64,000 bases of DNA from Acidimicrobiia bacterium. Lineage in GTDB: Bacteria > Actinomycetota > Acidimicrobiia > Acidimicrobiales > MedAcidi-G1. The stretch covers positions 1 to 64,000 of the forward strand of contig DUCC01000022.1 in the NCBI GenBank assembly GCA_012959995.1, given 5' to 3'. Below the pieces are notes generated by a model, which made no database searches, was not told the origin of the DNA, and saw only the letters and a program-made list of their open reading frames with translations. Below, piece by piece: positions 3,728 to 6,639 of the stretch (position 1 is the first letter of the stretch; each line of letters opens with the position of its first letter). Position numbers and translations under genes: made by a program.

Positions 3728-4996
3728 ATGCCGTTGCGCCTCACTGCCGAAGACCAGCAGTTACTTGACGGTGGCTCTGGGCCGGGTGCGCAAATGGCTA
3801 TGCGCATTGTGGTGCGTTTGGCCGAGGCCTTAGAAGCCGAACAACTCCTAACTATTTCGGGTGCGCACGTGGATTCTTGCCTCTACCACGGGCCTTCCAC
3901 TTTGGCGTTCGCCGAACGTTTGCTGGCTTTGGGTGCTTCGGTAAAGGTGCCCACCACACTTAATGTTTCTTCGCTGGATTTATTACATCCGGATCTTTTT
4001 ACCGGTGACCCCAAAGAGGCTGAGCAGAGTCGGCTTTTGACTGAGTGCTACAAAGGTTTGGGTGGTCAGCCCACTTGGACTTGCGCCCCTTACCAACTTG
4101 ATGAGCGGCCGGGTTTTGGGCAGCATGTGGCTTGGGCGGAGTCCAACGCCATTATTTTCGCTAACTCGGTGTTGGGGGCGCGAACCGACCGTTACGGCGA
4201 TTTCATTGATATTTGTGCGTCTATCACGGGGCGCGCTCCTGCTGCTGGTTTGCATTTGCAAGAAAACCGTCGGGCCAGACGAGTCTTTGATGTGTCTGGT
4301 CTTCCTTCTGCTTTGTTGGATTCCGATTGGTTGTTTCCGGTGTTGGGGGCGCTGGTGGGGGCGACTACTGGCGTGCAGGTTCCGGTGGTTACTGGGGTGC
4401 CCGGTGGCCAGCCGGAGCATCGTTTGAAGTCTTTGGGGGCGGCGGCGGCTTCCTCAGGGGGCATCGGGATGTTCCATATGGTAGGTAGCACCCCAGAGGC
4501 CCCTACGCTCTCTGAGGCCTTGGGTGGTGTTGATCCGCTAAGTACCATGCAGGTTTCGCTGACTGACTTAAACCAGGCCCGGGCTTCGCTTTCTACTGCT
4601 ACGGGTCTTTCTTTGAGCTCGGTGTGTTTGGGGACGCCGCACTATTCGCTTGACGAGTTTGCTGTTTTGGTTCCGTTGTTGTCCGGCCGCCAGGTACATC
4701 CTTCGGTGAATTTTTTAGTTTCTACTGGGCGAGGCATTTATCACGAACTGCAACTGCGAGGTTGGTTGGGCACGCTGGAAGCAGCAGGGGTGACCGTGGT
4801 GGTCGATACCTGCACTTATTTGTCTCCGGCGTTGACCGGCGGTACTGGCCCGGCCATGACCGACTCGGCCAAGTGGGCTTATTACGCCCCTAGCAACCTT
4901 GGGGTGGAGGTGACCTTGGCCAGTACCGCAGAATGCGTTAACTCTGCAATAAACGGCGTGGTGACCGTGGATGAAAGCCTGTGGGCTAATGGCTGA
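3728..4996 (+). CDS. Aconitase X catalytic (large) subunit, DUF521 family
   Basis: A 422-residue protein recognised by overall similarity to the DUF521/AcnX large subunit. Aconitase X members are Fe- or Fe-S-dependent hydro-lyases. The characterised bacterial ones dehydrate cis-3-hydroxy-L-proline to pyrroline-2-carboxylate; archaeal ones act on 5-phosphomevalonate. In a bacterium beside an amino-acid transporter the hydroxyproline role is the better guess, but it is an inference. The small swivelling subunit is encoded next, overlapping by 8 bp, so this is the split type rather than the fused type. Confidence 0.82.
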   Translation: MPLRLTAEDQQLLDGGSGPGAQMAMRIVVRLAEALEAEQLLTISGAHVDSCLYHGPSTLAFAERLLALGASVKVPTTLNVSSLDLLHPDLFTGDPKEAEQSRLLTECYKGLGGQPTWTCAPYQLDERPGFGQHVAWAESNAIIFANSVLGARTDRYGDFIDICASITGRAPAAGLHLQENRRARRVFDVSGLPSALLDSDWLFPVLGALVGATTGVQVPVVTGVPGGQPEHRLKSLGAAAASSGGIGMFHMVGSTPEAPTLSEALGGVDPLSTMQVSLTDLNQARASLSTATGLSLSSVCLGTPHYSLDEFAVLVPLLSGRQVHPSVNFLVSTGRGIYHELQLRGWLGTLEAAGVTVVVDTCTYLSPALTGGTGPAMTDSAKWAYYAPSNLGVEVTLASTAECVNSAINGVVTVDESLWANG

Positions 4997-5372
4997 CTTC
5001 CCGCATTTTCTTTGCCCGGGCCAAGCCGAGGGTTTGGTGCTGCGTCTTGATGAGCCGTTGAGTCTGTGGGGTGGCTTAGATGCGACTACCGGACGCATCA
5101 TTGATCAACATCACCCTCAAGTTGGGATGTCGATAAGCGGCACCATGTTGGTTATGCCCTCGGGCCGAGGTTCTAGTTCTGCCAGTGCGGTGCTTTTAGA
5201 GGCCATTCGTTGCGGCACTGCTCCGGCAGCCATCATTATGGAACACCCCGATGCCATTGTGGCTTTAGGGGCCATCGTGGCCGCCGAACTCTATGACGTG
5301 GCCCTCCCTGTGGTGGTGGTGTCTCCCCAAACCTTGGCCACCTACATCACCGGTGATTCTTTGTCGCTCTAG
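4989..5372 (+). CDS. Aconitase X swivel (small) subunit, DUF126 family
   Basis: A 127-residue partner of the upstream large subunit. The family signature MPSGRGSSSASAVLLEAIR is present near the middle; the serines are expected at the active site formed between the two subunits. I chose ATG 4989 (MADFPH), which overlaps the large-subunit stop by 8 bp, over the in-frame ATG at 4971. The gene converges on the AhpD-like gene, and the two stop regions overlap by 4 bp. Confidence 0.83.
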   Translation: MADFPHFLCPGQAEGLVLRLDEPLSLWGGLDATTGRIIDQHHPQVGMSISGTMLVMPSGRGSSSASAVLLEAIRCGTAPAAIIMEHPDAIVALGAIVAAELYDVALPVVVVSPQTLATYITGDSLSL

Positions 5373-5923
5373 CTCTCGTACCAGGATTCGTTGGGTTCGA
5401 CACCGAGACCATCGGCGAGGCGGTTGACGTAAGCGAAGTAAGCCGTTACTTCAACAATGTCAAGAATGTCTCGATCAGTAAAACCAACCGCCGTGAGCAT
5501 TTCGGCATCAGTTTTGGTCATTTGACCGGGGGTCACCGTCAACTTGAGGGCAAAAGCCAGCATGGCTTGGCGTTGCGGCGAAAGGCCAGCCGTTGCCCAA
5601 TCGCTTTCAACGGCCACCAGCAACTCATCATCTTTAAGCAAGCGACGCAGACCGCGTCGATGGTGAACAATTCAATAGTGGCAGTGGTTTTCCAAACTCA
5701 CTATCAAGGCCACCAACTCGCGTTCTACCTTGCGTAAAGTTTTGGTGCCGGACATGGCCGAGGCATAAAGATACTGATGGGCTTGCATGCCTTGCGGGTT
5801 CAATGAATGCACGGCCATGATGTGATCCACCCGGCCAGACTGCTGGTCAACGACCTGAGGGAACATTTCCGCCAAGGCGCCTTCGGTCCATTCGTCATCG
5901 GGTACGGTCTCAATCCAGGGCAT
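5369..5923 (-). CDS. Peroxidase-related AhpD-like protein, probable selenoprotein (UGA = Sec84)
   Basis: Read through one in-frame TGA (5672-5674), this gives a 184-residue protein of the peroxidase-related branch of the carboxymuconolactone decarboxylase/AhpD family. Before the TGA it reads NHCHY; after it IVHH, then the family ending NRLADGLGV. The family motif is N-x-CHYC-x-x-HH, so the TGA replaces the second, redox-active cysteine, giving Cys81-His-Tyr-Sec84. There is no frame change. A hairpin with a GGTCT loop begins 12 nt after the TGA (listed separately). ATG 5923 (MPWIETVP) fits the family start; ATG 5941 is possible. AhpD-type proteins reduce peroxides or protect against them through a CxxC pair. 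A nonsense mutation is the alternative. Confidence 0.85.
5643..5659 (-). promoter_or_regulatory. Putative bacterial SECIS element of the AhpD-like gene
   Basis: On the minus strand the sequence CGACGCGGTCTGCGTCG forms a perfect 6-bp stem with loop GGTCT. It begins 12 nt after the TGA, and its loop begins 21 nt from the first base of the TGA. The E. coli fdhF SECIS loop is AGGUCU, at about the same distance from its UGA. SelB recognises the G-U of that loop, so both loop content and position fit a selenocysteine insertion signal. Confidence 0.8.
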
Positions 5924-5940
5924 GCCTGTAGTCTCGCACA

Positions 5941-6639
5941 TTGGCCCATGTAGAACCCAACCGCTCTGGCCTGCTAGAAAAACTATTCGTGCCTACTCTT
6001 TCTGAAGCCCACTCCCGCACTTTGGTAGCGGACGCCGGAGTATTGGTTTCTTCGTGGGCCAGTGCTGAGACCGCCCAACAAGCAGCCCAGGCCGCTCAAA
6101 CTTTGGGCTTTCCCGTTGCCGTAAAATTGTGCGGTGATGCTATTGCGCACAAAACCGAACGTGGCTTGGTGCGCTTAAAATTGACCGATGCTGCATCGGT
6201 TGAGGCGGCCGCCGCCGAGTTGTTGGCCGCTGCCCTTCCCGAAGATGGACCAGTGAATTTACTTATCTCTCCTATGGTGACCGGCAATCGAGAGTTGATT
6301 GCCGGCTTGGTACGCGATGAGCAGTTCGGGGCCTGCGTCATGCTGGGCGTGGGTGGGGTATTAGCCGAAGCCATCGGCGACGTGGCCTTTCGCTTGGCCC
6401 CGTTAAGCCCCCTTGATGCCCAGGAACTCATTGATGACCTGGCGTCACAAACGTTGTTGGGTGCTTTTCGCGGCGAACCTGCGGTGGACCGTTCCACGCT
6501 GGTCAGCATTCTTTGCGCCTTAAGCACCCTCGCTCAGGACCCCAACATTGTTTCTGTTGACTTGAACCCGCTCATCGTGACCGACGGCCAACCGGTAGCC
6601 GTTGATGCTCTCGTTGAGGTGGCCGAGGCTCAATCATGA
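5941..6639 (+). CDS. Acyl-CoA synthetase (ADP-forming), ATP-grasp beta subunit
   Basis: A 232-residue ATP-grasp protein of the acetate-CoA ligase (ADP-forming) type, which interconverts acyl-CoA, ADP and phosphate with acid, CoA and ATP. The segments FPVAVKLCGDAIAHKTERG and MLGVGGVLAEAIGDVAFRL carry the nucleotide-binding pattern of this domain. The start is TTG 5941, only 17 bp from the divergent AhpD-like start, so its promoter must lie inside that gene; GTG 5989 is a fallback. The stop overlaps the alpha-subunit ATG (ATGA), so the two subunits are translated together. Confidence 0.85.
   Translation: MAHVEPNRSGLLEKLFVPTLSEAHSRTLVADAGVLVSSWASAETAQQAAQAAQTLGFPVAVKLCGDAIAHKTERGLVRLKLTDAASVEAAAAELLAAALPEDGPVNLLISPMVTGNRELIAGLVRDEQFGACVMLGVGGVLAEAIGDVAFRLAPLSPLDAQELIDDLASQTLLGAFRGEPAVDRSTLVSILCALSTLAQDPNIVSVDLNPLIVTDGQPVAVDALVEVAEAQS

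Follow-up and report, generated by a model that had tools for sequence, protein, structure and literature searches.

An AhpD-like gene with an in-frame UGA, a conserved bSECIS hairpin and selenocysteine as its best reading in an Acidimicrobiia genome

The interrupted frame and its redox site

Under the standard code, one locus in the window (the whole 64,000-nucleotide stretch of Acidimicrobiia DNA analysed here) yields two ORFs, 5941–5672 and 5641–5369, which raises the question of whether the TGA closing the first of them is a true stop or a codon for selenocysteine (Sec). An earlier note on this DNA had anticipated two broken ORFs under standard annotation, described a single frame interrupted by nothing but this TGA, and taken Sec insertion as the best reading. 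Read-through translation bears out the single frame, as the TGA at 5672–5674 is the sole internal stop of a minus-strand frame. The location proposed for the gene also stood, while its strand had been left out and was found to be minus. The gene spans 5369–5941 on this strand, ends with a TAG at 5371–5369 and starts at either of two equally possible codons, ATG 5941 or ATG 5923, the latter being the start implied by the earlier note. Its read-through product comprises 190 amino acids, with the Sec position at residue 90. The residues around the TGA, SLENHCHY-U-IVHHRRGLRRLL, reproduce the expected context, in which the CHYC motif of the family becomes CHY-TGA and continues with IVHH.

A profile search placed the read-through protein in the TIGR01926 family ("peroxidase-related enzyme") with 141.8 bits against a curated cut-off of 81.8, and the match is full-length, covering residues 8–185 and profile positions 1–177 of 178 across the TGA. 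The Pfam CMD domain (PF02627) is matched with 44.2 bits. In the alignment with the solved relatives 3c1l, 2pfx and 2oyo, proposed as a check in the earlier note, the TGA lies opposite the second Cys of their redox pair. The locus thereby carries one mark of a bacterial selenoprotein, an in-frame UGA opposite the Cys of homologues, and the assignment of the UGA as the Sec codon of a CHYU redox motif draws on this alignment and on the TGA found in homologues. The functional hints visible in the sequence are confined to the CxxU site and the downstream HH. Combined with the AhpD fold, the CxxU site suggests reduction of peroxides or of a peroxiredoxin, a chemistry that would follow from family membership.

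The window was also scanned for further frames that combine a read-through TGA with a hairpin. This gave only four candidates, all short, which resemble chance frames. The Rfam scan of the window returned one tRNA and nothing else.

The SECIS hairpin and the Sec machinery

The hairpin CGACGC-GGUCU-GCGUCG (5643–5659, minus strand) begins exactly 12 nt 3' of the TGA, where the earlier note had placed a perfect 6-bp hairpin with the loop GGTCT. Published criteria for bSECIS elements (PMC13188914) call for a loop of 3–9 nt, a stem of 4–16 bp, a G within the first two nucleotides of the loop, a UGA-to-loop distance of 16–37 nt and a minimum free energy of at most −7.5 kcal/mol. The window hairpin falls within all of these limits, with a 5-nt loop that opens with GG, 6 bp, a distance of 18 nt and −9.1 kcal/mol. 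When only the window gene is recoded at random with synonymous codons of its own, 1.5% of the trials yield GGTCT with a stem of 6 bp or more. The folding-energy z-score is −2.1 for the bare hairpin and about 0 for longer stretches, and the folding energy of these longer stretches was discarded as SECIS evidence, being indistinguishable from that of shuffled sequences. Because the folding energy in the wider context is not unusual, the case for a SECIS element rests on conservation.

This conservation was evaluated in 61 distinct TGA-bearing homologous genes, each recoded synonymously with its own codons in 500 runs. The loop is GGTCT in 61 of 61 genes (null mean 11.4, maximum 21), and in 51 the stem reaches at least 5 bp (null mean 6.7, maximum 14), the other 10 having shorter stems. 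The hairpin exceeds chance. Partial covariation of the stem was observed across these genes, with G-C, A-U, G-U and C-G at pair 4, and G-C and A-U at pair 5. A distant homologue (L097, 36% identity) carries another stem at the same position, GGAGAA-GGTCT-TTCTCC, in register with a U-rich 3' arm (sequence GGAGAAGGTCTTCTCC). The hairpin was not found in nine homologues without a TGA at the Sec site.

The host genome (2.03 Mb in 37 contigs, 96.7% complete) was searched for the Sec machinery with family models. A tRNA-Sec with the anticodon TCA (63.4 bits, gathering cut-off 47) was located on contig C14, together with SelA (329 bits) and the adjoining SelB (273 bits), both above cut-off, while SelD (361 bits) lies on contig C20. 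All of selA, selB, selC and selD, a further mark of a bacterial selenoprotein, are thus found, as the earlier note had asked, and the absence of selB or tRNA-Sec, which it would have held against Sec, does not apply. The SelD gene (L107, C20:35949–37869) is a selenoprotein gene too, with an in-frame TGA in GAG-U-GCK.

These results concern the sequences themselves, which establish the family, the conserved TGA, the conserved hairpin and the complete Sec machinery. For the locus as a whole, we are nearly certain that it encodes a thiol/selenol oxidoreductase of TIGR01926 with the AhpD (carboxymuconolactone decarboxylase-like) fold, whose C-x-x-C redox pair would be C-x-x-U with Sec in the second position. 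Sec would be inserted at the UGA by SelB with tRNA-Sec, directed by the adjacent bSECIS hairpin. The Cys–Sec pair most likely alternates between a selenenylsulfide and the reduced form, and in this cycle it would reduce peroxides or an AhpC/peroxiredoxin-type partner.

Homologues in the order and class, and competing explanations

The distribution of the gene was analysed in 198 genomes of the order, including the window's own, nearly all of them draft assemblies. A TGA-bearing homologue was found in 61 of them, namely 60 close orthologues (at least 59% identity) and one distant homologue (G063). Residue-by-residue reading of 63 homologous loci (61 distinct genes) located the TGA at this exact codon, in genes from many families. 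SelA scores above cut-off in 134 of the 198 genomes, which indicates that Sec use is widespread in the order. Among the 61 genomes with a TGA-bearing homologue, SelA is present in 59, the exceptions being G004 (85% complete) and G029 (69% complete). A full-score tRNA-Sec match is missing in seven (G004, G007, G029, G038, G042, G046 and G116), each with a completeness of 85% or less. Class-wide, 78 of 79 close matches contain an in-frame TGA, its position not having been confirmed in each. Throughout this actinobacterial class most close orthologues have the Sec form, which is a minor addition. A 97% identical copy of the gene occurs in the metagenome-assembled genome (MAG) Acidimicrobiales bacterium ANT-33, so that the window probably comes from an actinobacterium of the Acidimicrobiales type.

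The median dN/dS across 352 gene pairs was 0.23 for the part 5' of the TGA and 0.35 for the part 3' of it; these figures are rough, as the pairs are non-independent and synonymous divergence is high. Therefore, both halves, including the part after the TGA, appear to be under purifying selection. Only 2 synonymous and 5 non-synonymous changes separate the window gene from its closest relative, too few for a dN/dS. A second Sec codon or decay was considered for the matches with two TGAs or a TGA plus a TAG and dismissed, the extra stop being the normal gene end in those read (L077, L080, L109 and L110).

Several loci depart from the common pattern. One orthologue (L108, G446:C116:24-963) has TTA (Leu) where the Sec TGA would stand and keeps a SECIS-like hairpin; its genome, G446, is a MAG of 79% completeness. 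Either Sec was recently lost here and is not absolutely required, or the codon is an assembly error. In two genomes of one genus, a paralogue with TGG at the Sec position and without the second redox residue (L095 and L096, G182:C239 and G151:C289) directly adjoins the Sec gene. A copy at 57% identity, which shares the TGA and has a matching hairpin, sits on a contig binned as Planctomycetota (L021, JABACD010000014.1), a case of either horizontal transfer or mis-binning.

Three other explanations of the interrupted frame have to be weighed. A nonsense mutation or a sequencing error could have split an ordinary Cys-type peroxidase-related gene, and the two ORFs under the standard code are what such an event would leave. 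However, the same TGA occurs at the same codon in all 61 distinct genes of many families, nearly all class-wide matches contain an in-frame TGA, dN/dS after the TGA stays below 1, and the SECIS element is conserved alongside a full Sec machinery. Frameshifts or decay near the TGA, which the earlier note would have counted against Sec, were not seen in close relatives. This explanation is extremely improbable, and conservation over independent assemblies already refutes it.

Read-through by itself leaves the inserted residue unnamed, and the TGA might be decoded as another amino acid, such as Trp in a code-4-like reassignment, or be suppressed without Sec. Against this, the family has Cys at the TGA position, many orthologues themselves terminate at a TGA, which is therefore also a normal stop, and a tRNA-Sec with a UCA anticodon is present with selA, selB and selD; we consider decoding as another residue hardly credible. 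It is just as implausible that the locus makes two separate proteins, a 5' half that terminates at the UGA and a product of internal restart. The TTG-started ORF 3' of the TGA would fit such an arrangement, but the match to the 178-position TIGR01926 profile runs from one end to the other without a break at the TGA, and the redox motif would be split. Sec insertion at the UGA is the best reading because of the family match, the alignment of the TGA with Cys, the conservation of the hairpin and the presence of tRNA-Sec, selA, selB and selD, and this part of the earlier note is upheld, all the computational checks that it proposed having spoken for it. The locus illustrates cleanly how standard annotation would report two broken ORFs for what is, on this best reading, one selenoprotein.

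The aconitase X neighbourhood and known selenoproteins

The selenoprotein gene lies convergently (tail-to-tail) with a pair of genes for the catalytic and swivel parts of aconitase X (3728–5372, plus strand; PF04412 with 420.9 bits and PF01989 with 98.7 bits). The same convergent layout, with a swivel gene within about 1.5 kb, recurs in 24 of the 32 loci that were compared, nearly all of them from the window's own family. Most genomes of this family show the tail-to-tail order. The aconitase X genes are not part of the Sec mechanism, and for a linkage within one family, inheritance alone would suffice. A wider proposal takes this clade as almost exclusively Sec-dependent in the class and, in one family, as physically tied to aconitase X, and gives it a specific function, for instance the protection or regulation of this Fe-S-type enzyme; we regard this proposal as unlikely.

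AhpD-like selenoproteins have been known since the Sargasso Sea survey of 2005 (Zhang et al., PMC1088965), which listed 27 AhpD-like and 4 CMD-domain selenoproteins, all with CxxU. A 2026 review (PMC13188914) contains the entry "AhpD-like protein, TIGR01926, CxxU, MCB9421940.1". The window gene agrees with these in family, in a CxxU motif with Sec second and in a bSECIS directly downstream. It differs from the 2005 proteins in its setting, an Acidimicrobiales-type genome and a tail-to-tail position with aconitase X, with no mechanistic difference seen. With the two AhpD-like families of the Global Ocean Sampling survey (299 and 70 sequences; PMC2398784) it shares the CxxU motif and COG2128/PF02627. 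Those families were recovered from metagenomic reads and assemblies, and lack the accompanying host genome and Sec machinery that are available for the window gene. The (seleno)protein family NF041238 (AhpD_rel_CFYUT) is likewise AhpD-related with CxxU, but it is a different, longer family, to which the window protein scores only 45 bits (cut-off 175). M. tuberculosis AhpD, with the active site Cys130/Cys133/His137 (PMC3141380), has the C-x-x-C active-site hairpin and downstream His in common with the window protein; in contrast, it is Cys-type, has another chain topology and shows low sequence similarity. Combined, the window gene adds a member, with its host context, to a selenoprotein family catalogued since 2005 and is no new kind, which leaves the overall picture unchanged.
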